Part shown: piece after piece, positions 17,094 through 34,546 of the stretch
How the letters are laid out: the number at the start of each line of letters is the position of its first letter
Numbering within the stretch: the first letter of the stretch is position 1
Source: SAR86 cluster bacterium
GTDB taxonomy: Bacteria; Pseudomonadota; Gammaproteobacteria; Magnimaribacterales; AG-339-G14
Length of the DNA stretch: 64,000 nucleotides
NCBI GenBank assembly: GCA_023703675.1
Contig: CP097974.1
Location: 395,288 to 459,287 of the forward strand
Reading direction: 5' to 3'
Notes under the pieces: generated by a model
What the model was told of the DNA's origin: nothing
Database searches by the model: none
The model's input: the letters and a program-made list of their open reading frames with translations, nothing else
Program-made: the position numbers and the translations under genes

Positions 17094-17792
17094 ATGATTA
17101 AAGATCAAATACTATTAGTCGAAGACGAACCTGATTTACTTCAAACCCTTTCATTTAATTTTGAGAATGAGGGTTATAAAGTTTCAAAAGCAAGTAACGG
17201 TGAAAAGGCGCTGAAATTACTCGAGGAAAATAATTCCATTGGTTTAGTTGTTCTTGATTTAATGCTACCAGATATTAGTGGTTTAGATATTTGCAGACAT
17301 ATTAGATCTTCAGATAACTTAAAAGACATCCTAGTCATTATGGTGACTGCTAAGGGCGAGGAAGTAGACAGAGTGGTGGGTTTTGAAATAGGTGCTGACG
17401 ATTATGTCGTAAAACCTTACAGTGTTAGAGAGTTAATGCTTCGAGTCGGCGGTTTGCTTAAAAGATCTTCGAAGAAAAAAGACGAAAGCAATGATGAAGT
17501 TCAGATTTATGAAAATTTAAAAATAGATACCAGTAAGCACAAAGTTTCCATAGCCGATAAAAAAATATCTTTAACTTCAAAAGAATTTAAACTTCTCAAA
17601 CATCTTTTATTAAAAGCTGACAAAGTTCAGACAAGAGATAATCTTCTTGAAAAGGTTTGGGGTTATAACAACGACGTCACGACAAGAACAGTCGATACGC
17701 ATATCAAAAGATTGAGATCAAAAATTGGAAAATATGGAGATAGAATAGAAACAATTAGAGGAGAAGGGTATCTCTTCAATAAATCAGACTAA
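17094..17792 (+). CDS. phoB: phosphate regulon response regulator PhoB
   Basis: OmpR/PhoB-class transcription factor, 232 aa. The receiver domain has the acidic triad (VEDEPD near residue 9) and phospho-acceptor Asp55 in VVLDLMLPD; MVTAKGEE and DDYVVKPYSVREL give the conserved Thr and Lys. The C-terminal winged helix (residues 135-230) includes LTSKEFKLLKHLL and VWGYNN...RTVDTHIKRLRSKI, the DNA-recognition segment of PhoB. It directly abuts phoR. Pho-box-like repeats downstream (21668 onward) are probable binding sites. Confidence 0.9.
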   Translation: MIKDQILLVEDEPDLLQTLSFNFENEGYKVSKASNGEKALKLLEENNSIGLVVLDLMLPDISGLDICRHIRSSDNLKDILVIMVTAKGEEVDRVVGFEIGADDYVVKPYSVRELMLRVGGLLKRSSKKKDESNDEVQIYENLKIDTSKHKVSIADKKISLTSKEFKLLKHLLLKADKVQTRDNLLEKVWGYNNDVTTRTVDTHIKRLRSKIGKYGDRIETIRGEGYLFNKSD

Positions 17793-19145
17793 ATGAAATT
17801 AACCGTAAAAATAAGACTATTTTTAATCGTATTATTGGTTGTATGTCTAGTTACTTTGGTCGGATCTATAATTTATAGAGGAAATACTTTTCTAAGTGAA
17901 AACCTATTATTAGGATTTAGTTTATTATTTCTCACTTCAATTGTTACAACTTATTTCATTTATCAATACTTTAAAAGACTAGTAAATTCAGCTGCTCAGC
18001 TGATTGCAAAAAAAATTGTAGATGATCCTTCGGTTGCTTCTGAAGAAATTTTTGATGAGCTTATTAAGGAATCCAGTCAGGTTAAAAACGATCTAGCCTA
18101 TTTTACTAAACAAACTGAACAATTTAGTTCCGTGTTATCAAAAATGGGACAGGGAGTTATTTTGGTTGATAAAAACTATCGAGTTTTGTTTGCGAATAAA
18201 ACTATCAATTCAGAATTCTTTCCTGACTTAAATATCGGCGATAAGCTTTTTGAAAAAATCAGTTATCCTCAATTTAAAAAATTTATCGAAAAAGCCTGGA
18301 ATAAAAAAGACTTAGTTAGAGAGATTTCCGGCCCTATATCAGTTAAGACTGTTTATCTGGTGAGTGCTAAAAAAGACGACTTTAGGGATGAAATGTTGAT
18401 TGTTTTTAGCGACATATCTAAATCTAAAAATCTTGAAAAAATGAGAGAAGATTTTATTGGCAATGTCTCTCATGAATTGAGAACACCAATAAGTGTTATC
18501 AAAGCTAATGCTGAAACTTTGATTACAAATAAATTAATTAAAGATGATGAAAATGCTAAATCATTTACAGAAGCAATATCTTCTCAATCAGAACGTATGA
18601 CAGCCATAGTTAATGATTTGCTTAAAATTTCAAGTATGGAAGCAGGGGAATATCCGATCTCAATTGAGTCTATAGATCCATTTTCAATTGCCAAAAGTTT
18701 AATTAAAGAATTCAAACCCGGTTTAGAAGAGAAAAAATTGGTTATTCAAAATAATTTGAATAAACAAACTAGGGTAATGGCTGACGGAGCAGCTTTGAAA
18801 ATTATTCTGACAAATTTCCTAAGCAATGCCATCAAGCACTCACCTAAAAAAGCTTTAATAAATCTGGAAGAATCTTCCTCTTCTAAAGGTTTTATAAAAA
18901 TATCCGTATCAGATCAAGGAAAAGGCGTGCCAAAAAAATATAAAGAAAGAGTTTTTGAAAGATTTTACAGAATAGACAAAGGTCGATCGACAAAACTAGG
19001 CGGTACAGGTTTAGGCCTCTCCATCAGCAAAAATTTAGCTTTGATGATGGGCTACTCGGTTGGAGTCGAGTCGAATGCGCCTAAAGGAGCAACTTTCTTT
19101 ATTGATATAAAACTCGATGAAGCAAAATCCTTTCAAGCTGCTTGA
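17793..19145 (+). CDS. phoR: phosphate-sensor histidine kinase PhoR
   Basis: Membrane histidine kinase paired with PhoB. 450 aa: two N-terminal helices (about residues 7-24 and 35-54) with almost no periplasmic loop, a linker, a PAS domain (about 105-205), HisKA with His227 in GNVSHELRTP, and an HATPase domain with N (TNFLSNAIKHSP), DQGKGVP and LGGTGLGLSI boxes. This lack of a sensory periplasmic domain is characteristic of PhoR, which senses through the Pst transporter and PhoU. No pst or phoU gene is in the window. Its 3' end overlaps the convergent ppx by 13 bp. Confidence 0.88.
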   Translation: MKLTVKIRLFLIVLLVVCLVTLVGSIIYRGNTFLSENLLLGFSLLFLTSIVTTYFIYQYFKRLVNSAAQLIAKKIVDDPSVASEEIFDELIKESSQVKNDLAYFTKQTEQFSSVLSKMGQGVILVDKNYRVLFANKTINSEFFPDLNIGDKLFEKISYPQFKKFIEKAWNKKDLVREISGPISVKTVYLVSAKKDDFRDEMLIVFSDISKSKNLEKMREDFIGNVSHELRTPISVIKANAETLITNKLIKDDENAKSFTEAISSQSERMTAIVNDLLKISSMEAGEYPISIESIDPFSIAKSLIKEFKPGLEEKKLVIQNNLNKQTRVMADGAALKIILTNFLSNAIKHSPKKALINLEESSSSKGFIKISVSDQGKGVPKKYKERVFERFYRIDKGRSTKLGGTGLGLSISKNLALMMGYSVGVESNAPKGATFFIDIKLDEAKSFQAA

Positions 19146-20023
19146 ATATTTTTATTTCCCTGCAATTCTTTTTCCATTACTCCATCAACAATATTCCAAG
19201 AACTATCAAATAGGTAAGAGTTAGGAAAAAATTCCATGATCTCTGCAAAAATAGCAATAGCGTATTCAAGAATGTCAGCTCTATCCTCGGGTAGAGAATA
19301 AAATGACACTTTTTCTTCAAAATTCTTGTTTTCCAGTTCTTTTTTTAAAGCTCTCAATTCATCTAGGGAAGATTTCCTATCTTGTTTATTGATAATCTCA
19401 TTGATAAGTCTGGCATTACCTCCTACACCAATTATATTTTTTATATTTTTAGACGGAATTTTAGTGAGCCACTCTTTTAAATTATCCCAATGCTTGGGCG
19501 AGTCTTTTTTTTCTAAAATTCTAACCGCCCCAAGAGGAAAAGATTTGGCAAGATTTTTTCCACTGCCTTGATAAAAAATCTCAGTACTGCCACCGCCGAT
19601 ATCTACAACTACCGTTTCTTCTTTTTTAAAACTTTTGTAATTAAAAAAATTTAACAGCTGCGCCTCTTCGTTTCCGGATAATATTTTAATTTCTATATCA
19701 GTTTTTTTTGTTATTTTTTTACAAATTTTATGTCCATTAGAAACCGTTCTCATAGCGGAGGTAGCTACTCCAGATATTATTTTTATATCTTTTTTATCAG
19801 CTTTGTCTTTGAGTTTAATTATGCTTTCTAATAACTTCTGCTCAGTTTCGGAAGAAATTTTCTTGAATTTGAAGGCATCGGTGCCTAGCCTAACTGAGAT
19901 TCTTTTAAAAGTATCCAATTCAGCAAAAACTTTTCTTTTTTTTGTTGCTATACGGTATTGACGATATTTAATCGCGTTTGAACCAATATCAATACAAGCT
20001 AGGCGCTGATTTTTATTCTTCAT
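19133..20023 (-). CDS. ppx: Ppx/GppA-type exopolyphosphatase
   Basis: ASKHA-fold phosphatase that trims polyphosphate or hydrolyses pppGpp. 296 aa, corresponding to the two N-terminal actin-like domains only; the C-terminal HD-like half of 500 aa E. coli Ppx is absent, as in many short homologues. CIDIGSNAIKY (residues 10-20) is the first phosphate loop, VVDIGGGSTEIF (near residue 139) the second, and IGVGGNARLIN the third. Overlaps the end of PPK2 by 11 bp, forming a polyP-breakdown/synthesis or nucleotide-charging pair next to phoBR. Which of the two substrates it prefers cannot be read from the sequence. Confidence 0.88.
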   Translation of the reverse strand: MKNKNQRLACIDIGSNAIKYRQYRIATKKRKVFAELDTFKRISVRLGTDAFKFKKISSETEQKLLESIIKLKDKADKKDIKIISGVATSAMRTVSNGHKICKKITKKTDIEIKILSGNEEAQLLNFFNYKSFKKEETVVVDIGGGSTEIFYQGSGKNLAKSFPLGAVRILEKKDSPKHWDNLKEWLTKIPSKNIKNIIGVGGNARLINEIINKQDRKSSLDELRALKKELENKNFEEKVSFYSLPEDRADILEYAIAIFAEIMEFFPNSYLFDSSWNIVDGVMEKELQGNKNIQAA

Positions 20024-20846
20024 CTGCCAAAACTTTTAAAATCTTGTATTGCTGATAACTCAAGTTATTAAAAGGGACTTTATTTATAGTTAAAGAGTAA
20101 TCGTTAATATTCTCCGTCCAAATTTTTGGTTTTGGCAGGTCTTTATTAGGATAATCAAAGGTTCCCAAAATGTAACGTAAAGCATGAAGCACTGCTATCT
20201 TTTTATCATTAGCATTTAAAACTATCCAAGGCGCTTCAGGATGGGAGGTTTTCTTAAACATTTGCTCTTTGTAAAGAGTAAAAATATCCCATCTGTCTAA
20301 ACCTTTTAAGTCGTTTTCACTTATTTTCCAATACACCAATGGACTATTCTTACGTTTCTCTATTCTCATCTTCTGAGTTCCTTTTTCTATGGATAAATAA
20401 AACTTAAGTATTTTTGTGTCATTTTCCATAAATCTTTCTTCCCAAGGGATAACTTTTTTCATAAAAGATTTGTACTGTCGTTCTGTGCAATAGCCCATAG
20501 TTGCTTCTACTAAAGCCCTGGTATACCAAGATCTGTCAAAAAAAACTAACTCACCAGTCTCTGGCATTTGTTTTTCATATCTTTGAAACCAATTTTTAGA
20601 TTCATTTTCAGTAGGAATGCCTAGTTTAACAAGCCGGCAATGTTTGGGTATTAGATACTTAGACAAAACGGAAATACTCCCAGTCTTTCCAGCTGTGTCT
20701 CTTCCTTCAAAGACAACTGCTATCTTCTTTTTCTCTTGTATGATCCAATCCTGGAGTTTGACAAGCTCAATTAAAAGCTTTCTCTTCTCTTTTTCATAAA
20801 GCTTAGAATCAATTCTTCTGTAGTTTGGTATATCAAATTCAATCAT
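20013..20846 (-). CDS. ppk2: polyphosphate kinase 2 family protein
   Basis: PPK2 enzymes transfer phosphate between polyphosphate and nucleotides. I chose the ATG at 20846 (277 aa), where the typical homology begins; the frame extends to a TTG at 20912. Walker A is GRDTAGKTG (residues about 49-57), followed by lid/Walker B elements FFDRSWYTRALVE and the KFYLSIEKGTQ segment. Overlaps ppx by 11 bp. Together they could interconvert polyP, nucleotides and phosphate, matching the phosphate theme of the neighbourhood. The class (I-III) and direction of the reaction cannot be told by eye. Confidence 0.88.
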   Translation of the reverse strand: MIEFDIPNYRRIDSKLYEKEKRKLLIELVKLQDWIIQEKKKIAVVFEGRDTAGKTGSISVLSKYLIPKHCRLVKLGIPTENESKNWFQRYEKQMPETGELVFFDRSWYTRALVEATMGYCTERQYKSFMKKVIPWEERFMENDTKILKFYLSIEKGTQKMRIEKRKNSPLVYWKISENDLKGLDRWDIFTLYKEQMFKKTSHPEAPWIVLNANDKKIAVLHALRYILGTFDYPNKDLPKPKIWTENINDYSLTINKVPFNNLSYQQYKILKVLADEE

Positions 20847-20950
20847 ATTTTTTTGGCGAAAATCTATTCTAGCTAAGTTTTTATGGAAGATTAAATTATT
20901 TACTGTAAACAATTTTATTTTCTCTTCTCACAAATTAATAAGCTATTCTT

Positions 20951-21160
20951 AATGTTTATGGCCAAATAAATATGGCTGCTAATGACCGTAATGGCAATGG
21001 TGATTATTTTATCAATGCACCTAGATAAGGAGTAAAAGGAATTTTGGGTTTTAACGGATTGACTGAAATTTACTAAGTTCAATAAGAATTAAATTCTACC
21101 GATGGTTCTGTATGAGATGAAGTTAAAAATTCCAACGGTGTTGTAACGGACTAAGTTTGA
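20951..21160 (+). pseudogene. decayed outer-membrane porin fragment
   Basis: The longest gene-poor stretch (20913-21220) holds a relic in one frame. Reading from 20951 gives NVYGQINMAANDRNGNGDY, then an APR-stop-GVKG block, then GFNGLTEIY-stop-VQ-stop-ELNSTDGSV-stop-DEV. This matches the N-terminal part of general Gram-negative porins (YGQINVA..., SRxGVKG, NGLKAIYQVEYELN) with in-frame TAA/TGA codons instead of frameshifts. No upstream signal peptide or downstream barrel remains, and a strong terminator stands just after it. I infer a deleted and decaying porin; given phoBR nearby it may once have been a phosphate-regulated porin. Family call by motif memory only. Confidence 0.6.
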
Positions 21161-21904: not shown

Positions 21905-24900
21905 ATGAACCCAAAATCAATTAAATACTTATTGTCAGTTCTTTCAATCTTCGTTTTAGTCTCTTGTGGTGGTTCCGGTGATACCAATATTGCTTCGCCA
22001 GGTGAACTAGGACAACTAACTGCCCCAAGTGGTAATGATAATTTTGCAGCTACAACTAGCACCTTATTAACAGGAACGTGTCCTACTTCCCCGTTTATTG
22101 CTGATGCTGCAACTCTTGGTGGAAACACATTATGTGCAATCACGGGACCAATTACTTCAGATCTTACTTTGACAACTGATGTAATGTATACGTTGTCTGG
22201 TAAAGTTGATGTCGGAAATGATATGGGCGGAGATGGTACAAAAGCTGGAGGAGTTTCAGCAACATTAACAATTCCAGCCGGTGTAACGCTTGCTCAAAAA
22301 ACAACTGATGATTACCTTGTTGTTCAAAGAGGTTCGAAAATTATTGCTAATGGAACAAGATCTGCACCTATCAGATTTACTGCAGCTTCTGCTATTGATG
22401 GATCTTTAACTAATCCGGAAACTGCAAATAGTCTTTGGGGAGGAGTAGTAATTTTAGGAAAAGCACCAATTAACAAGTGTGCTGCCGCTGATATAGGCTC
22501 TGCTGCTTGTGAAAGAGTGGTTGAGGGTTCGACTACTGCTATCATGGGTGGAAATACTCCAGCTGATAACTCTGGTGTTTTAAACTTTGTAAGAGTTGAA
22601 TATGCAGGTAAAGAAATATTTAAAGACAACGAATTAAATGGTATTACTTTTGGTGGTGTTGGTTCTGGTACCTTAGTAGACTACATTCAAGTCCATAACA
22701 ACAAAGATGACTGTGTAGAGTTTTTTGGTGGAACTGTAAATGTCAAACATTTAGTTTGCACTAATGCAGGTGATGATAATCTTGATTTTGATTGGGGTTA
22801 TCAAGGAAAAATTCAATTTGTTGTTATTAAACAAAAAGTTGGCGCAGGTGATCACATTGTCGAATCAGATAACACAAACGCTGATGCGTCAGTAGGCTAC
22901 CTTACAGAGCCTAGAACACAACCAATGGTTGCTAATTTTACCTTTATTGGTGGGACTGACGAACCATTTAAAATTAGAGAAGGTGTATCTGGAATTTATA
23001 TCAATGGTATTGTTGCAAACCAACAAGCACAAAAGCTCATAGATGGTGCCAATTCAGAAACTGTGCAAGATGGGGCACTAACAGATAAAATTGCTTTTCA
23101 TTCCGTATTTTTTGATTCAGCTCTAACAGGACAAACTGCAGCGGTTAATACTAACTTAGATAGCACACTATTAAATTATGATGACACAGTAACTGTTGCA
23201 GATTTTGCAACATCACTTAATTCAAGAAAAACTAATTTAACCGTTGGAACCAATACTTTGGTGGACACATATTTCTTGGGTACTGCAGAGTCTGCTGTTC
23301 CTAGCGCTTTTTCTGTAGGATCAAAGAACGCTATGTGTGAAATTGGAACTCATGATAAAGCAAACGGTGCTCAACCAAAATCAGGATTGTGTAGTGTAGG
23401 TAAAAACACTGCTGATGCAGGAGAAACTGCTGACTATACTTATACAGTCAATGGATTCTTCAATGCTACAGATTATATTGGTGCATTTTCACCTGGGTCT
23501 GATGCAGAAAATAACTGGGCTGCAGGTTGGACAATCGGTTTATTTACCGATCCTGCATGTCCAGCTGGAACTCTTGAATCAGAAATTCTCTTAGGTAGAA
23601 AAGTCTGCGACTTAAAAGGAGTTATAAAAGATGATCTAACTCTAGTTGCAGGAAACTATTATAAGCTTGATGGTAAAGTTGAAGTCGGTGTTGATGCAGG
23701 AGCTGATCCCTTAAACCCTGCTGCAAATGCTGATACAGCTATACTAACTATTAATCCTGGCGTTACAATTTTTGGTTTATCAGGTAATGACTATTTAGTT
23801 ATCAACAGAGGATCTGATATTAATGCTGTTGGAACAAGATCAGCTCCAATTGTGATGACTGGAAAACAAGAGATTCTTGGTCAAGTAGATGTTGACCGAA
23901 CACGAGGACTTTGGGGTGGATTAGTCATTCTTGGTCAAGCACCTATCAATAAGTGTACATACACAGGAACAGTAAAAGCTGTCCCTTGTGAAAAAGCCGT
24001 TGAGGGAACAGTTGGAAATGTAATGGGTGGTGAAGTTCCTGGTGACAGCAGTGGAGCACTCAAATATTTAAGAGTTCAGTATGCAGGATATGAGGTATTT
24101 TCAGGTAATGAGCTAAATGGAATTACTTTTGGTGGTGTTGGAAACGGTACTTCGGTTCAATATGTCCAAGTGCATAACAATGTTGACGATTGCGTTGAGT
24201 TCTTTGGTGGAACAGTCGATGTGAAACATTTGATATGTACTGGAGCAGGTGATGATAACTTGGACATTGATTGGGGTTATCAAGGAAGACTTCAATACGT
24301 AATAGTTCAACAGGCCAACGATAAAGGCGATCATATTGTAGAATCAGACAACGTTAGTACCACTGCAGTAGGCTACCTAACAGAGCCTAGATCAAACCCC
24401 ATTGTTTCTAACTTTACTTTCATAAGTAGAGGCCATGACGAGATATTCAAGTTAAAAGAGGGTGTATCAGGTCAATATTACAATGGAGTTGCTGCAGTCC
24501 TTAACGCAGCTTCTGGCTTAACAAAGGGTTGTATTGAAACAACATACGCGGAAACTATTCAAGATGGAGCTAGCACTCCTAAGTTCTCAATGAATTCCGT
24601 TGCATTTGATTGTCCTACTTCAGGTAGTGCTGGAAGCAGCACTATGGTCACAGTAGATTCGGAGACTTCAGGAAGTGTAACAGTAGCAGATGTAGAAGCG
24701 ATCGTTAAGGCAGGAACAAACAATCTCTATGCAGCTAGTTCTGGTGGAGGTTCATATGTAAATACACTTAGTGGAGTTGTTAATGGTTCTGCAGAGGCTG
24801 CAGCTACTCCGACATCAACTTTACCAGACAATGCCGATGGATTTTTTGACACTCCTACATATATAGGTGCAGTTAAAGATTCTACTGATGATTGGTACAA

Positions 24901-24937
24901 AGTATGGACATTACCTGGATCAATAAAACTTAACTAA
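21905..24937 (+). CDS. large surface lipoprotein with two homologous domains
   Basis: 1010 aa exported lipoprotein: signal with lipobox LVSC (Cys about residue 21) and a GGSGDT linker. Two long repeats follow, roughly residues 55-540 and 550-1005, sharing blocks such as ELNGITFGGVG, YVQVHNN/YIQVHNN, DDCVEFFGGTV and GDHIVESDN, so the gene arose by internal duplication. The glycine-rich, beta-strand-like repeats suggest a beta-helix, by inference. Such proteins commonly stand beside TonB receptors in marine bacteria; I know no proven function. Start supported by AGAGGA upstream and by the Pho-box promoter at 21831. A TonB receptor follows 30 bp later with its own GGAG, probably same transcript. 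Candidate role: capture of a phosphorus-containing ligand at the cell surface. Confidence 0.8.
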   Translation: MNPKSIKYLLSVLSIFVLVSCGGSGDTNIASPGELGQLTAPSGNDNFAATTSTLLTGTCPTSPFIADAATLGGNTLCAITGPITSDLTLTTDVMYTLSGKVDVGNDMGGDGTKAGGVSATLTIPAGVTLAQKTTDDYLVVQRGSKIIANGTRSAPIRFTAASAIDGSLTNPETANSLWGGVVILGKAPINKCAAADIGSAACERVVEGSTTAIMGGNTPADNSGVLNFVRVEYAGKEIFKDNELNGITFGGVGSGTLVDYIQVHNNKDDCVEFFGGTVNVKHLVCTNAGDDNLDFDWGYQGKIQFVVIKQKVGAGDHIVESDNTNADASVGYLTEPRTQPMVANFTFIGGTDEPFKIREGVSGIYINGIVANQQAQKLIDGANSETVQDGALTDKIAFHSVFFDSALTGQTAAVNTNLDSTLLNYDDTVTVADFATSLNSRKTNLTVGTNTLVDTYFLGTAESAVPSAFSVGSKNAMCEIGTHDKANGAQPKSGLCSVGKNTADAGETADYTYTVNGFFNATDYIGAFSPGSDAENNWAAGWTIGLFTDPACPAGTLESEILLGRKVCDLKGVIKDDLTLVAGNYYKLDGKVEVGVDAGADPLNPAANADTAILTINPGVTIFGLSGNDYLVINRGSDINAVGTRSAPIVMTGKQEILGQVDVDRTRGLWGGLVILGQAPINKCTYTGTVKAVPCEKAVEGTVGNVMGGEVPGDSSGALKYLRVQYAGYEVFSGNELNGITFGGVGNGTSVQYVQVHNNVDDCVEFFGGTVDVKHLICTGAGDDNLDIDWGYQGRLQYVIVQQANDKGDHIVESDNVSTTAVGYLTEPRSNPIVSNFTFISRGHDEIFKLKEGVSGQYYNGVAAVLNAASGLTKGCIETTYAETIQDGASTPKFSMNSVAFDCPTSGSAGSSTMVTVDSETSGSVTVADVEAIVKAGTNNLYAASSGGGSYVNTLSGVVNGSAEAAATPTSTLPDNADGFFDTPTYIGAVKDSTDDWYKVWTLPGSIKLN

Positions 24938-27875: not shown

Positions 27876-28520
27876 ATGAAAATAAAAAAATACATTGCTG
27901 AATTTTTAGGAACCTTTTTTTTAGTGGCTACAGTCATTGGTTCCGGGATCATGGGTGATAATTTATCTTCTGGTAATGTGGCAGTGGCTTTATTAGGTAA
28001 TACGATTGCAACCGGAGCAATTCTTTATGTCATCATTAAATCTTTTGAAGATTTATCAGGAGCTCACTTTAATCCAATTGTCTCAATAGTCTTTTATTTT
28101 TTAAAAGAGATCAACTTAAAAGATTTACTCTTCTATTTAATTATTCAATTCATTGCAGGATTTTTCGCAGTAATATTTATCCATTTCATATTTGAACTTA
28201 GTTTGCTTCAAATTTCATCCAAACCCAGGATGGGAATCAGTATGCTTTTAAGTGAAATAATTGCATCATTGGGATTAATTTTAACTATCTTAATGGTTAG
28301 AAAAAATAATAAGTCTAATGTAGCTATTTCAGTGGCTTTATTTATTACAGCGGGTTACTGGTTTACATCGTCTACCTCATTCGCAAATCCAGCAGTAACT
28401 CTAGCTAGGACATTTACGGATACTTTTACTGGAATTTCACCAGAGTCGATTATTTATTTCTTTTCAGGCCAATTAATTGGTCTGTTCATTGCTTTGTATA
28501 TTTATAAATTTTTAAGATGA
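27876..28520 (+). CDS. MIP-family channel (AqpS-like aquaglyceroporin)
   Basis: 214 aa, six helices. The two half-helix motifs are HFNPIVS (NPI in place of NPA, near residue 66) and FANPAVT (near residue 170), with the AEFLGTFFLVATVIGSG N-terminal helix. It overlaps arsC by 4 bp (ATGA). From established knowledge, aquaporins encoded with arsC (AqpS) export arsenite formed from arsenate. That fits this context, because arsenate enters through phosphate transporters such as the Pit encoded at 33296. A general water/glycerol role cannot be excluded. Confidence 0.85.
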   Translation: MKIKKYIAEFLGTFFLVATVIGSGIMGDNLSSGNVAVALLGNTIATGAILYVIIKSFEDLSGAHFNPIVSIVFYFLKEINLKDLLFYLIIQFIAGFFAVIFIHFIFELSLLQISSKPRMGISMLLSEIIASLGLILTILMVRKNNKSNVAISVALFITAGYWFTSSTSFANPAVTLARTFTDTFTGISPESIIYFFSGQLIGLFIALYIYKFLR

Positions 28521-28936
28521 GAGAATCGAAGAAAATATTATTTCTCTGCACTGGAAATTCTTGTAGATCGCAAATGGCTGAAGGTTTTGCAAAAAAATTT
28601 ACTACTTTTCAGGCTTATTCAGCTGGCACTAGAAAATCTAATTTAAATTCATATGCAATCAAAGTAATGTCAGAAGTCAAAATTGATATATCTGATCAAT
28701 TCTCTAAAACCATAGACGAATTGGAAGACAAAGATTTTGATTATGTTTTTACTTTATGTTCAGATGCTGAAGAAAACTGTCCAGTCTTATTCAAAGGGAA
28801 GACCATACACAAAGGTTTTGAAGATCCTCCTATGCTCTCAGAAAATATAAATGACGATGAAAAAATATTAAATATTTACAGAAGGGTAAGGGATGAAATT
28901 CTTGATTTCATTCTAAATATCAATCATGACATTTAA
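28517..28936 (+). CDS. arsC: arsenate reductase, low-molecular-weight phosphatase type
   Basis: 139 aa of the LMW protein-tyrosine-phosphatase fold. The P-loop is CTGNSCRSQ (residues 11-19) with the CX5R signature, and two further cysteines sit in LCSDAEENCP (near residues 80-90), the redox pair of thioredoxin-coupled ArsC. Converts arsenate to arsenite, which can leave by the overlapping channel gene. No arsR or arsB/acr3 is nearby, so the channel seems to be the exit route. Alternative: a tyrosine phosphatase, but the extra cysteines favour ArsC. Confidence 0.88.
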   Translation: MRESKKILFLCTGNSCRSQMAEGFAKKFTTFQAYSAGTRKSNLNSYAIKVMSEVKIDISDQFSKTIDELEDKDFDYVFTLCSDAEENCPVLFKGKTIHKGFEDPPMLSENINDDEKILNIYRRVRDEILDFILNINHDI

Positions 28937-28950
28937 ATTTAGTCATTCTG

Positions 28951-29042
28951 GGACAATAGTTTCACAACAATTTTATCGTGTATTATTTTTCAATTTAGAG
29001 AAATAAAATATGGAATCTTTTTTTAAACTGCTTTCCAGCTAG
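28951..29042 (+). repeat. diverged copy of the pit promoter and start (relic)
   Basis: About 70 bp resembles the region before and into pit (33238-33305): shared blocks AGTTTC, AACAAT, ATTATTTTT, AATTTAGAGA and ATATGGAA align in order. The copied ATG at 29010 reads MESFFKLLSS then stop, against METLFLDPF in pit, so only promoter and first codons remain. Half-sites GACAATA (28952) and CACAACA (28963) keep the 11-bp period. Confidence 0.6.
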
Positions 29043-29066
29043 AATGTTCTCATTAAGTTTTTTATT

Positions 29067-29097
29067 TGTAACATTTCTGTAACATTTTTTGTATACA
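29067..29097 (+). promoter_or_regulatory. Pho box and -10 for the TonB receptor/phytase genes
   Basis: TGTAACA starts at 29067 and again at 29078, exactly 11 bp apart, with TATACA at 29092-29097 as a plausible -10. A GAGGGA ribosome site (about 29115) and the ATG at 29126 follow. Confidence 0.78.
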
Positions 29098-29125
29098 TTA
29101 ACTCTAAGTTTATTGAGGGACTCCT

Positions 29126-31678
29126 ATGAAAAAAATATATTTATTTCTTTTAATTTTTGCAAACCCTTTTGTATTTTCTCAAGAAGACTCAGAAAATATT
29201 GAGGAACTATTTGTAGTTGGAACAAAAGCTAGCATTATCTCTGCTATAGAAAAGCAAAGGGAATCCGATCAGATTATATCTGTTATAGATTCAGATGCAT
29301 TAGGTGAATTTCCAGATACTACCGCTGCAGAGGCTTTAAGAAGAATCTCAGGTATTTCAGTTGAAAACGACCAAGGTGAGGGCCGTTATGTTACTGTTAG
29401 AGGTCTTTCTGGAGACTTAAACAATATTTCTGTCAATGGCGCAACTATTCCAGCACCAGAAGGTGGAAGAAAAGTGATGCTCGACGGTCTACCAACAGAA
29501 CTTCTAGATTCTATTGAAGTATACAAATCTTTAACTCCTGATCAAGATCTTGATTCTATTGGTGGAAGAGTTGAGTTTAATACGAAAAGCGCTCTAGACT
29601 TGGATGGCACGTATTTCAAACTAAAAGCAAATACCCAATACAACGATCAAACATATAATAATGATAATCCTAAAATCTCCCTCACCTACGGAGATCTGAT
29701 TAGTGAAAATGTGGGACATATAATTGGTCTTACTTATTCTAAAAAACAAGTAATTACTTACAACAATGAAACCGGTTTTCCTGCTTGGGCTGCCACTGGT
29801 GGAAACTATGCAATAGATGATGATTTTGAAAGCAGATATTATGATTTAACCAGAGAAAGATTAGGTATTACTTACGACATTGACTATAGGATCAATGATG
29901 AATCATCTATGTATGCAAATATTTTATGGAATGAATACGTGGATGATGAGCTCAGATATAAAGATGAGTACGGGAAGTTAAAAAACAGTAATGTTACTGC
30001 TGTAGGAAGCACTATTACAGAAATAAGAAGAGATGCAGAAGTAAGAGTTAGGGAGGAAGTTAGAACAATCAGAACATTCATTCTAGGTGGTAACACAATA
30101 GTCAACGGTTGGGATGCAGAGTTTGCATTTTCGAATTCTTTTGCTGAAGAAGATGATACAGACAATGTTGATGCAAAGTTTAGAAGCAGTACCTTTAAGG
30201 CAGCTGCTTGTGGAGGACCTTGTGGATCTTTTGATTATTCAAATCCTCAAATACCACGTATGACTCTAGCTACTGCAATTACTACTGGGGCTGGAAATAT
30301 TTATGATCCAGCAAGCATGGGAGTAGATGAGATTGAAGAGGAAGATTCTGTAATTGATGACACAATATCATCATTTCAGGCTGATTTTACAAAAGAAGGT
30401 TTTACGGTTTCTGATATTCCAACGACTTTAAAATTTGGCTTCAAATATAGCACTCGAGAAAAAGAAAAAACTGTTTCAGGTTTCGCTTCGGATCCTGGTA
30501 CTTCTCAATCAAATTACAATCCAATCACTACACCAGTTAACTGGCCTTGGCCAAATGTATTTGGTCCCATGGCAGATCCTGCAACAATCTTCGCTCTTCA
30601 GGGCACATTTGGTTCATTAACAAATAACTATGCAAAACCTAACTTTGACAAAGATTTTGTTTCTGAAGAAGATATCACAGCACTTTATTTAATGGGCACA
30701 ATGGAATTTGAAAATGCAGTTGTGATTGCTGGTCTAAGGGCAGAGGACACTTCATTTGATACACTTGGATACAATAAAGAAGATGACTCTACTATTAGAG
30801 CATCTAAAAATTACACATTCGTATCACCAAGTGTAAACGTAAAATACTTCGTCAATGACGACACAATAGTTCGTGGTGCAATTTTTCGATCTTTATCTAG
30901 ACCTGGATTTGGTGAAACTGCTCCCGTAGCAGACTTTAAATCGGATGGAACTGCAGCGGATGGAAGTACAATTTATAAGGGAGAAATGGGTAATCCTGAC
31001 TTAGAACCATATGAATCTACAAATCTAGATCTTAGTTTTGAAAGATATTATGAAAATGGCGCAGTATCAATAGGTTATTTTAGGAAAGATGTTAAAAATG
31101 CTATTTATCCTCAAGTTACAGCAGGTGTTGTTGGAGGGATTAACTTTAGCGAATTAGAAACATACATTAACAGTGAAAAGTCAACAGTTGATGGAATTGA
31201 ATTCAATTTTTTCAGTGAATTTGTGAATCTTCCTGAACCATTTGATGGTTTATTCATCTCATTAAATTTAACTGAAGTTGACGCTGAAAGTGATGTTCCT
31301 AGCGCTGCCGGTGTGTTTACCGTTCCATTTAGAAAACTCGCTGATAGCACAAGAAATTTATCAATTGGGTACGACAAAGGAAAAGTTGACATGAGACTCT
31401 CGTTAGCTCAAAGAAGCGATTACTTAGATTATCTTGCTGATGATGATATAGAAACTACTGTAGATAATCTAAATTATGACAATATCAGATTTACTGACGA
31501 TCATTCGCAAATAGACTTTACAGCCAAATATTATTTGGATGATAATTTAACTCTTAAATTAGACTTAATTAATATAAATGACGAACCAGAATTCTATTAT
31601 TGGGGCAATCCTTCAAGACTTTCTCAATATGATGAATATGGTAGAAGTGCGACAATTGGTTTCACTTATAAGTACTAA
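29126..31678 (+). CDS. TonB-dependent receptor, phytase-associated
   Basis: 850 aa outer-membrane receptor. Signal peptide to about FSQ (residue 19), TonB-box-like EELFVVG, plug with EFPDTTAAEALRRISG, VTVRGLSGDLNNISVNG and PDQDLDSIGGRVEFNT, the signature of the Xanthomonas/Caulobacter-type TonB receptor subfamily; barrel to a terminal IGFTYKY. Its neighbour is a beta-propeller phytase, so the likely cargo is phytate or its partly dephosphorylated products (inference). Preceded by a two-copy Pho box. The stop is followed within 20 bp by a terminator hairpin that overlaps the phytase signal sequence. Confidence 0.92.
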   Translation: MKKIYLFLLIFANPFVFSQEDSENIEELFVVGTKASIISAIEKQRESDQIISVIDSDALGEFPDTTAAEALRRISGISVENDQGEGRYVTVRGLSGDLNNISVNGATIPAPEGGRKVMLDGLPTELLDSIEVYKSLTPDQDLDSIGGRVEFNTKSALDLDGTYFKLKANTQYNDQTYNNDNPKISLTYGDLISENVGHIIGLTYSKKQVITYNNETGFPAWAATGGNYAIDDDFESRYYDLTRERLGITYDIDYRINDESSMYANILWNEYVDDELRYKDEYGKLKNSNVTAVGSTITEIRRDAEVRVREEVRTIRTFILGGNTIVNGWDAEFAFSNSFAEEDDTDNVDAKFRSSTFKAAACGGPCGSFDYSNPQIPRMTLATAITTGAGNIYDPASMGVDEIEEEDSVIDDTISSFQADFTKEGFTVSDIPTTLKFGFKYSTREKEKTVSGFASDPGTSQSNYNPITTPVNWPWPNVFGPMADPATIFALQGTFGSLTNNYAKPNFDKDFVSEEDITALYLMGTMEFENAVVIAGLRAEDTSFDTLGYNKEDDSTIRASKNYTFVSPSVNVKYFVNDDTIVRGAIFRSLSRPGFGETAPVADFKSDGTAADGSTIYKGEMGNPDLEPYESTNLDLSFERYYENGAVSIGYFRKDVKNAIYPQVTAGVVGGINFSELETYINSEKSTVDGIEFNFFSEFVNLPEPFDGLFISLNLTEVDAESDVPSAAGVFTVPFRKLADSTRNLSIGYDKGKVDMRLSLAQRSDYLDYLADDDIETTVDNLNYDNIRFTDDHSQIDFTAKYYLDDNLTLKLDLININDEPEFYYWGNPSRLSQYDEYGRSATIGFTYKY

Positions 31679-32759
31679 AAATTATTTTCCCCCAAAAAAG
31701 GCAAGTTTCATACTTGCCTTTTTCTTGTCTACTTTTGCTTTTGCAGATTATGTTGAGGTTGAGGCAATTTACGAGACACCGCCAGTTATAACTGAGGGAG
31801 ATGCAGCTGATGATCCTGCAATATGGGTAAATAAAAATAATCCTTCAAATTCAATTATCTTTGGAACTGATAAAAAAAGCGGAATTTATAGTTACAATCT
31901 TCAAGGACAAGAGTTGAGTTATACAAATCTTGGCAGGATTAATAATGTTGATACAAGAAGTATGAATCTTGGAGACGATGAGAATGTCTCTGATTTTACT
32001 TTTCTTTTTGGGTCTAATAGAACATTAGGATCGGTAGATTTATGGGTATTTGAAGATAATAAAACAAGACAAAAACTTAAAAATAATTCATGGGAAGTCC
32101 CATCAAAACCATCATTTAGAGGTAAATCAAATATTATCGTATATGGTATATGCGCTGGAATCGATCCAAAGTATGGATTAGTTGCTTTTTTAACAGAAGA
32201 CACTGGTCCGCGAGTTGAAGTATGGAACCTGACTGATAATGGCCTCGATCTTATAACAACTTTTAATAATGGTGGAGAATCGGAAGGGTGTGTTTATGAT
32301 GATTTCAATAGAACTCTTTTTATATCAGAAGAAGAAGTAAGAGGGGTTTTAAAAGCTTATAGACTCGATGACAGTTTTGATTTCTCTGAGCCTTATATTG
32401 TCGATTCTAGAGAAGGTCAAATTGGTGGCGACCCAGAGGGAGTATCTTTATATAAAACATCAAACAATTCTGGTTATTTAATTTTGTCCTCTCAAGGCGA
32501 TAGTAAATTTAATTTGTATGATAGGAATTATCCATATGATTATATAACCAGTTTTAGAATAGGTTCTTCAAAAAGTATAGACAATGTTACTGATACTGAC
32601 GGTATAGAAACAATCAACTTTAAACTGAGTGATGAGTATCCAGAAGGTATTATGATTGCACAAGATGGTCTTAATAAAGATGGGTATAAAACTAAAAGGC
32701 AAAACTTTAAAATTGTCTCTTTCAAAGATGTACTTGATGCTTTAACTGTTCCTAGATAA
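31638..32759 (+). CDS. beta-propeller phytase (3-phytase)
   Basis: Secreted or periplasmic enzyme that removes phosphates from phytate. Family blocks include GDAADDPAIWVN, IIFGTDKKSGIYSYNLQG, NNVDTR, ESEGCVYDD and FISEEEVRG; the acidic residues are the expected Ca2+ ligands. No ATG lies between the receptor stop (31678) and the mature part, so translation must start inside the receptor gene: I chose the ATG at 31638 (373 aa, 36-residue signal ending STFAFA), with the frame open back to 31578 and GTG 31647/TTG 31653 as alternatives. The signal-peptide codons contain a terminator-like hairpin (31695-31723). Expression seems to need readthrough and translational coupling with the receptor. Confidence 0.88.
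   Translation: MVEVRQLVSLISTKNYFPPKKASFILAFFLSTFAFADYVEVEAIYETPPVITEGDAADDPAIWVNKNNPSNSIIFGTDKKSGIYSYNLQGQELSYTNLGRINNVDTRSMNLGDDENVSDFTFLFGSNRTLGSVDLWVFEDNKTRQKLKNNSWEVPSKPSFRGKSNIIVYGICAGIDPKYGLVAFLTEDTGPRVEVWNLTDNGLDLITTFNNGGESEGCVYDDFNRTLFISEEEVRGVLKAYRLDDSFDFSEPYIVDSREGQIGGDPEGVSLYKTSNNSGYLILSSQGDSKFNLYDRNYPYDYITSFRIGSSKSIDNVTDTDGIETINFKLSDEYPEGIMIAQDGLNKDGYKTKRQNFKIVSFKDVLDALTVPR
31695..31723 (+). terminator. terminator hairpin embedded in the phytase signal-peptide codons
   Basis: Stem AAAAAGGCAAGT (31695-31706), loop TTCAT, stem ACTTGCCTTTTT (31712-31723): 12 perfect pairs with a run of T. It lies 17 bp after the TonB receptor stop and inside the phytase frame, so it may attenuate phytase expression relative to the receptor. 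Confidence 0.75.
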
Positions 32760-32953
32760 TATCTAGGGTTTATATCAAATAATTCAATCACTCATATGCA
32801 TTAATTCTTACCTTTGCCTTTTATTGTTCTGGATAAATCTATTTCTTGTCAGCCTAAGGACTAAACTGAAATAGGAATCGAATTAAATTTTTAAATATTT
32901 AAATTTAAAGTTTTGAAAAAAATGCTAGTTTTTTTTATAAAATTCATCTATTG

Positions 32954-32982
32954 TGTCAATTATGTGACATAAAAGTGTCAAT
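32954..32982. promoter_or_regulatory. Pho-box-like triple repeat
   Basis: TGTCAAT (32954), TGACATA (32965) and TGTCAAT (32976) repeat with an 11-bp period and are closer to the E. coli TGTCAT consensus than other boxes here. A -10-like TAATAT at about 32993 overlaps the ATG at 32998, so transcription might start after it. The preceding 32760-32950 stretch shows no gene; only a short CCTAGATA/TATCTAGG hairpin at 32751-32767. Confidence 0.6.
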
Positions 32983-32997
32983 AATGTTACAAATAAT

Positions 32998-33123
32998 ATG
33001 AATACTAAAACCGTTCTTAAAGATCAAAGATTAATACCTGCAAAGTCTCAAGTGCAAGAGATGGTTATATTTGGTTTTATTTCTTTATGGATAGTTTTAG
33101 TGGCAGTTCTTTATTTTTCATAA
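32998..33123 (+). CDS. 41 aa single-helix membrane protein, unknown
   Basis: Frame with a basic N-terminal half (MNTKTVLKDQRLIPAK) and a C-terminal membrane helix of about 18 residues ending AVLYFS. It has no clear ribosome site at 32998; if the Pho promoter starts after 33000, the internal GTG (33052) or ATG (33061) would yield only the helix. Its position between a Pho box and pit suggests phosphate-starvation expression. No family recognised. Confidence 0.45.
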   Translation: MNTKTVLKDQRLIPAKSQVQEMVIFGFISLWIVLVAVLYFS

Positions 33124-33237
33124 ATATCTCTGAAAAAAAAACCTAAGTCTTTTTATTTATCCATAAATTGCAAGGATTTGAATCATTCACTATTTCATCT
33201 AAATTTTACTTTTATATCTAAAATTAAGTTTCATTAA

Positions 33238-33282
33238 GGCAACAGTTTCTTAACAATCTTGTAGTAAAATTATTTTTAATTT
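33238..33282 (+). promoter_or_regulatory. Pho-box-like promoter of pit
   Basis: Half-sites GGCAACA (33238), CTTAACA (33249) and TGTAGTA (33260) have the 11-bp period, weaker than other boxes. TAATTT at 33277-33282 is a -10 candidate, giving a very short leader before the ATG at 33296. A diverged copy of this block lies at 28951. Confidence 0.5.
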
Positions 33283-33295
33283 AGAGACTCTCAAT

Positions 33296-34546
33296 ATGGA
33301 AACTTTGTTTTTGGATCCTTTTAACATACTTTTGATTGCAGGATTTATTGGTTTTTTTATGGCTTTCGGCATTGGGGCTAACGATGTTGCAAACTCCATG
33401 GGGACTTCTGTAGGAAGCAAAGCTATAACCCTTAAACAAGCAGTAATAATTGCGGCTATTTTTGAATTTTTAGGAGCTTTTTTAGCAGGTGGAGAAGTAA
33501 CTTCTACAATTAGAAAAGGCATCGTAGATCCAAATCTCTATGCCAATGATGTAAATATATTTGTAATGGGCATGATATCAGCTCTTTTAGCAGGAGGTAC
33601 TTGGTTGTTTATCGCGAGTTTAAGAGGCTGGCCTGTTTCTACTACTCACTCAATAGTGGGAGCTATTATTGGTTTCGTACTAATTTCTAAGGGAGTAGAT
33701 GCCGTATCTTGGGGTAAGGTTGGTAATATAGCAATGAGTTGGGTAACTTCCCCTTTATTTTCTGGAACTTTAGCCTTTGGACTTTATATTTCTGCAAAAA
33801 AATTAATCTTAGACAGAGCCAATCCTGGAAAAGCAGCTATCACTTTTATTCCATTTTATAGTTTTCTAGTAGCAGTCGTTATTTCACTCGTCACAGCAAG
33901 GAAAGGTCTTAAACATGTAGGAATAGAATTTTCAGAAAATGAAATTTATTTATTTACTTTAATTTTTAGCATTATTGTTGCAACTGGAACAGCATTTTTT
34001 TTAAGAAGGAATAAAGATCAAATAATGAGAGAAGGCGGCATTGAATTTGCATTTGGATTGCTGATGATAGTTTCTGCTAGCGCCATGGCTTTTGCCCATG
34101 GTTCAAATGATGTTGCAAATGCAATTGGACCTTTAGCAGCAGTTGTAAGTGTTGTGGATACTGGCGAAATAGGATCTAAATCTTTAATCAGCCCATGGGT
34201 GTTACTTGTTGGAGGTATTGGGATAGTTTTTGGTTTAGCAACTCTAGGTTCCAGGGTCATCTCAACAGTCGGAAAAAAAATTACAGCTCTAACTCCTAGT
34301 CTTGGCTTCTCCGCTGAAATGGCCACAGCGTCTACTGTTGTTGCTGCAACTTATCTTGGGTTTCCTATTTCAACTACACATACACTAGTTGGTGGAGTTA
34401 TAGGTGTTGGTCTAGCTAAAGGCGCAGAACACTTAGATTATGCTTCCATAAAGAGAATAATTGCTTCATGGTTAGTAACTATTCCAGCTGGAGCAGCTTT
34501 TACAATTTTATTCTATATTTTATTAAGAATAATTTTTAGTGTGTAA
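33296..34546 (+). CDS. pit: Pit-type inorganic phosphate permease
   Basis: PiT family (PF01384-type) cation/phosphate symporter, 416 aa with about ten helices. The two family signatures are GANDVANSMGTSVGS (near residue 28) and HGSNDVANAIGPLAAV (near residue 265), each followed by a matching inverted-repeat segment with STTHSIVGA and STTHTLVGGV. Imports phosphate (and arsenate) across the inner membrane. Convergent with the prepilin peptidase, 10 bp apart. Pit genes are often phosphate-repressed or constitutive; here the upstream repeats suggest PhoB involvement, sign unknown. Confidence 0.95.
   Translation: METLFLDPFNILLIAGFIGFFMAFGIGANDVANSMGTSVGSKAITLKQAVIIAAIFEFLGAFLAGGEVTSTIRKGIVDPNLYANDVNIFVMGMISALLAGGTWLFIASLRGWPVSTTHSIVGAIIGFVLISKGVDAVSWGKVGNIAMSWVTSPLFSGTLAFGLYISAKKLILDRANPGKAAITFIPFYSFLVAVVISLVTARKGLKHVGIEFSENEIYLFTLIFSIIVATGTAFFLRRNKDQIMREGGIEFAFGLLMIVSASAMAFAHGSNDVANAIGPLAAVVSVVDTGEIGSKSLISPWVLLVGGIGIVFGLATLGSRVISTVGKKITALTPSLGFSAEMATASTVVAATYLGFPISTTHTLVGGVIGVGLAKGAEHLDYASIKRIIASWLVTIPAGAAFTILFYILLRIIFSV

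Follow-up and report, generated by a model that had tools for sequence, protein, structure and literature searches.

Truncated-gene scars in bacterial islands are partial copies of gene ends at junctions, and they can be used as homology for deletion. In marine HIMB59, which belongs to a different bacterial class from SAR86, phosphate genes (pst, phoBR, ppk, pit and others) vary at one fixed chromosomal place, and their exchange was attributed to homologous recombination, with no IS or tRNA borders (PMC10734472). For SAR86, an isolate paper whose main text has no terms that start with "phytase" or "arsen" described pit as a core feature and pst as less widespread (PMC11582366); the same pit/pst pattern was seen in the SAR86 genomes compared here. 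Nothing specific on SAR86 phytase or SAR86 phosphate islands was found in the literature.

The window (the whole stretch of DNA that was analysed, 64,000 nt) comes from a SAR86 genome of 1.19 Mb in a single contig (G000). It carries an island that belongs to the flexible phosphate islands, a kind already known, with unusually clear scars. The genes phoB-phoR-ppx-ppk2 (17094-20912; names from translations) are followed, in order, by genes for a lipoprotein, a TonB receptor, aqpZ, arsC, the stretch studied here, a second TonB receptor, a phytase, a 41-aa ORF and pit. In contrast to HIMB59, the SAR86 slot is bounded by ppk2 and the 41-aa ORF-pit operon, with phoBR further upstream, and is occupied by a receptor-phytase pair; its borders can be recognised as remnants of genes (pit 5', porin 5' and 3'), and neither an integrase nor an IS or tRNA was noticed there. 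It also differs from truncated-gene scars in general, since the repeat is here a housekeeping gene's own promoter. The lipoprotein-like protein next to the first receptor (21905-24937; 1010 aa, repeat-bearing) matched no Pfam or NCBIfam model.

Between arsC and the second receptor, positions 28934-29041 are read here, with a probability of about 0.7, as a recombination scar: a pit gene joined to arsC would have lost its body when the receptor-phytase pair was installed. The features concerned, all on the + strand, are the following:

20887-21106, +: 5' remnant of a porin gene, with several stops; right after ppk2, at the left edge of the 11.7-kb island
28517-28936, +: arsC, an arsenate reductase-like gene of the LMWPc family whose matches stay below the curated cut-offs of NCBIfam; adjoins the scar on its left
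28934-29041, +: probable scar of a lost pit copy, comprising its promoter region and some 11 codons; homologue of 33216-33328
28961-28989, +: sigma70-like element TTCACA-N17-TATTTT inside the scar; putative promoter, predicted from sequence
29010-29042, +: 10-codon remnant frame of pit, decayed and not conserved among the genomes with the receptor-phytase block
29065-29083, +: Pho-box-like direct repeat TTTGTAACATTTCTGTAAC in the receptor's own promoter (score 19.4)
29126-31678, +: TonB-dependent receptor
31692-32759, +: phytase (PF02333), start codon approximate
32838-32893, +: 3' remnant of the porin gene, its final ~18 codons interrupted by a stop (score 194; shuffle maximum 41)
32951-32991, +: Pho-box array of 11-bp-spaced repeats, upstream of the 41-aa ORF
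32998-33123, +: conserved 41-aa ORF, directly upstream of pit in family f1 relatives
33216-33295, +: true pit-proximal promoter, the other copy
33296-34546, +: pit, inorganic phosphate transporter, PHO4 family

The initial annotation had reported a match of about 70 bp to the pit promoter and first codons, made of several sequence blocks. All of the blocks were recovered in order, and the homology proved longer (~105 bp): it begins at the TAA stop of arsC (28934) and extends to roughly codon 11 of pit (~29041). When 28937-29060 and 33200-33330 were aligned locally, the score was 56, against a mean of 20 (sd 3.2, maximum 37) for 2000 dinucleotide shuffles; across alignments, the two stretches matched over 83-93 columns with scores of 56-60, against shuffle maxima of 37-40. 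No second place resembling the pit promoter scored above 37 on either strand of the window. The pit upstream regions of two relatives (G017 and G001) aligned better still, scoring 92-101 over 92-109 columns with 79-82% identity (shuffle maximum 43), and BLASTN with two relatives found the scar independently (E = 6e-16 and 1e-14). The scar resembles the pit promoters of sister SAR86 lineages more than that of its own genome: at the sites where the two pit-promoter types differ, 9 were of the sister type and 1 of the own-genome type. Whole-genome BLASTN of G000 with the scar copy as query returned no further copies (next best E = 0.06); the search also missed the true pit promoter and is thus insensitive at such divergence.

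Both stretches precede phosphate-related genes, and their likeness might in principle be a mere shared transcription-factor site or RNA element. This is very improbable: the homology is colinear over the full ~105 bp and reaches through the start codon into coding codons, which makes it more than a shared regulatory motif; moreover, there is no other such place in the window, no match to Rfam RNA families and no Pho box. Two candidate sources were rejected. The pit promoters of g6-type donors gave scores of 20-28, close to shuffle level; no pit-like stretch was seen upstream of the receptor in the g6 genomes examined. An arsC-pit junction as in G001 and G003 was discarded as well, given that arsC there adjoins the 41-aa ORF and the spacer is like a pst promoter region.

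The 10-codon frame at the end of the scar, also annotated initially, does exist (G000, G005 and G022), but it is not conserved: G021 reads AAG in place of its ATG, and the frame found at the scar in G006 is a different and longer one. It is therefore no gene but decayed coding sequence. Downstream of the start, the scar shows indels and a mean divergence of 18.5%, as after loss of coding constraint, and the 73-bp core has changed far more slowly than the scar's codons and linker (p = 2e-5 to 3e-4).

The core includes the sigma70-like element, whose TTCACA and TATTTT hexamers are identical in five block genomes and whose -35 and spacing are better than those of the true pit promoter. It was rejected as a Pho box, since the 11-bp-spaced repeats are absent by matrix (7.7, against a background 99th percentile of 9.8 for a matrix built partly from the scored sites); the true pit promoter has no Pho-box score either, so the scar promoter, if active, would be Pho-independent. 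These properties make a Pho-independent input plausible and speak for promoter capture, in which the copied pit promoter would have been retained for driving the receptor and phytase constitutively, besides their Pho-controlled promoter. Such a capture is nevertheless doubtful: divergence between G000 and G006 is equal in the scar core and at fourfold sites (p = 0.26), with no conservation beyond neutral; the copy contains useless, decaying codons; promoter-like matches are common in this AT-rich stretch (7 observed, 2.7 expected); and the scar lies ~140 bp upstream of a receptor whose own promoter has a Pho box. A similar Pho-box-like repeat precedes the receptor in family f2/g6. Of the promoter capture or copying suggested in the initial annotation, the true duplicate of the pit promoter stands, but capture for use is opposed by the receptor's Pho box, the neutral core divergence and the unconserved frame. 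The receptor promoter region (29044-29125) differs by ~30% between G000 and G021, the receptor genes by only 1.5%.

Most relatives carry the 41-aa ORF and its Pho-box array directly 5' of pit, and in G000 the true pit operon likewise starts with this ORF bearing its own array. The ORF resembles a single membrane helix, precedes pit, more diverged, in another SAR86 family too, and matched no Pfam or NCBIfam model; it may act with Pit as a small partner, or regulate it. The slot can be written phoBR-ppx-ppk2-x-ORF41-pit, where x is a porin (G017, G020 and several others), porin-aqpZ-arsC (G001, G003 and G035, which have no receptor-phytase block), porin-aqpZ-arsC-pst (G004 and G028) or lipoprotein-receptor-aqpZ-arsC-scar-receptor-phytase. 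The last arrangement, in which aqpZ-arsC-scar-receptor-phytase-ORF41-pit are consecutive, is known from only five genomes (G000, G005, G006, G021 and G022). In G025, pstS is directly 3' of arsC; pit was not found in the pst-carrying genomes. Phosphate gene content therefore varies at one conserved place. The expected neighbourhood of arsC and pit in the absence of the receptor-phytase block was also found, with the 41-aa ORF between them in G001, G003 and G035 and directly at the locus L137 described below; in block-free genomes arsC is thus a neighbour of the pit operon. The gene trees of the five block genomes conflict, so these genomes exchange DNA.

In G001 and G003 (L054 and L055), the arsC-ORF41 spacer keeps a pst-promoter-like stretch, ATGTA[A/G]CAGACACACCACATATC, with no pst gene following; it is a further promoter scar at that site.

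The receptor-phytase segment is bordered by what is left of pit (5' end) on one side and of the porin (3' end) on the other. DNA shared with the g6 receptor-phytase pair begins at about 29124 and stops at 32821; 16 bases on, at the right edge of the segment, lies the porin 3' remnant, with the normal porin-ORF41 spacer directly 3' of it. The 5' remnant at the other end of the island derives from the same gene, whose intact relative is a Gram-negative porin (Pfam). Since the two remnants stand 11.7 kb apart at both ends of the island, the island replaced the middle of the porin gene. These edges fit the earlier suggestion that an old pit copy was displaced by the receptor-phytase block. The phytase is 90-92% identical to that of family f2/g6, as against only 60-64% for the pit genes, and the receptor-phytase pair has therefore crossed family boundaries, a horizontal exchange of island content.

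A direct arsC-pit junction was found at L137, in the single-cell genome AG-917-I09 (G203, same coordinates as G047; family f2/g6), where lipoprotein-receptor-aqpZ-arsC is linked to pit through a 77-bp spacer and pit stops at codon 57. At the sites distinguishing the scar copy from the pit promoter, the spacer is all copy-type on the left and, right of a single switch, nearly all pit-type. Its aqpZ-arsC differs from those of G000 and G022 at 4 of 1058 bases and from those of G006 and G021 at 28-30; L137 thus branches within the block-bearing group, which suggests that it may be a recombination product of a block-bearing relative, not an ancestral state. The segment (L137:2988-10172; lipoprotein-receptor-aqpZ-arsC-truncated pit) is family-f1-like, while the sequence to its left is g6-like, with 74% identity in g6 and nothing matching it in the tested f1 genomes, and AG-917-I09 has its own pit-receptor-phytase set on another contig. 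With pit cut at codon 57, in a single-cell genome of another family, the segment might be either a cross-family transfer or an amplification or assembly chimera.

The scar and the true pit promoter are direct repeats, between which recombination could delete the receptor-phytase segment, with L137 as the deletion product. The spacer's passage from copy-type to pit-type and the closeness of aqpZ-arsC to G000 and G022 agree with this possibility, which we regard as tentative: the case is single, from a single-cell genome whose pit is truncated; the switch falls within a few identical bases of repeats only ~74% identical; and DNA exchange with a different chromosome, or descent from an ancestral state with arsC joined to pit, could yield the same hybrid. 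Less likely again is that the scar and the true promoter form a reversible cassette, from which recombination removes the segment and restores arsC-pit in one step; if so, populations would alternate between users of organic phosphate and strains with pit alone.

The scar reading combines the observed homology, synteny, two porin remnants, cross-family receptor-phytase pair and codon decay, and from these we infer a history whose order of events and direction of transfer are conjectural. In a SAR86 lineage, arsC would have been directly joined to pit, the join falling in TAAATTT at the arsC stop; this earlier state is likewise postulated. A receptor-phytase pair, common to another SAR86 family, would then have been inserted with loss of the pit body, leaving the pit promoter and the first ~11 codons beside arsC. 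The arsC-scar-receptor-phytase island now lies within the broken porin gene, upstream of the intact 41-aa ORF-pit operon, a position that places pit promoter sequence on both sides of the receptor-phytase segment. The full intermediate (arsC and an intact pit, then receptor-phytase or porin) was found in no genome examined. The sigma70-like element, judged from its sequence, may still give weak Pho-independent reading into the receptor and phytase, besides the Pho-box promoter.

Together, the scar and the two porin remnants are a readable record of how a phosphate island was assembled in an ocean bacterium that is abundant and mostly uncultured, and suggest that gene promoters can themselves be homology for the exchange and loss of phosphate genes.
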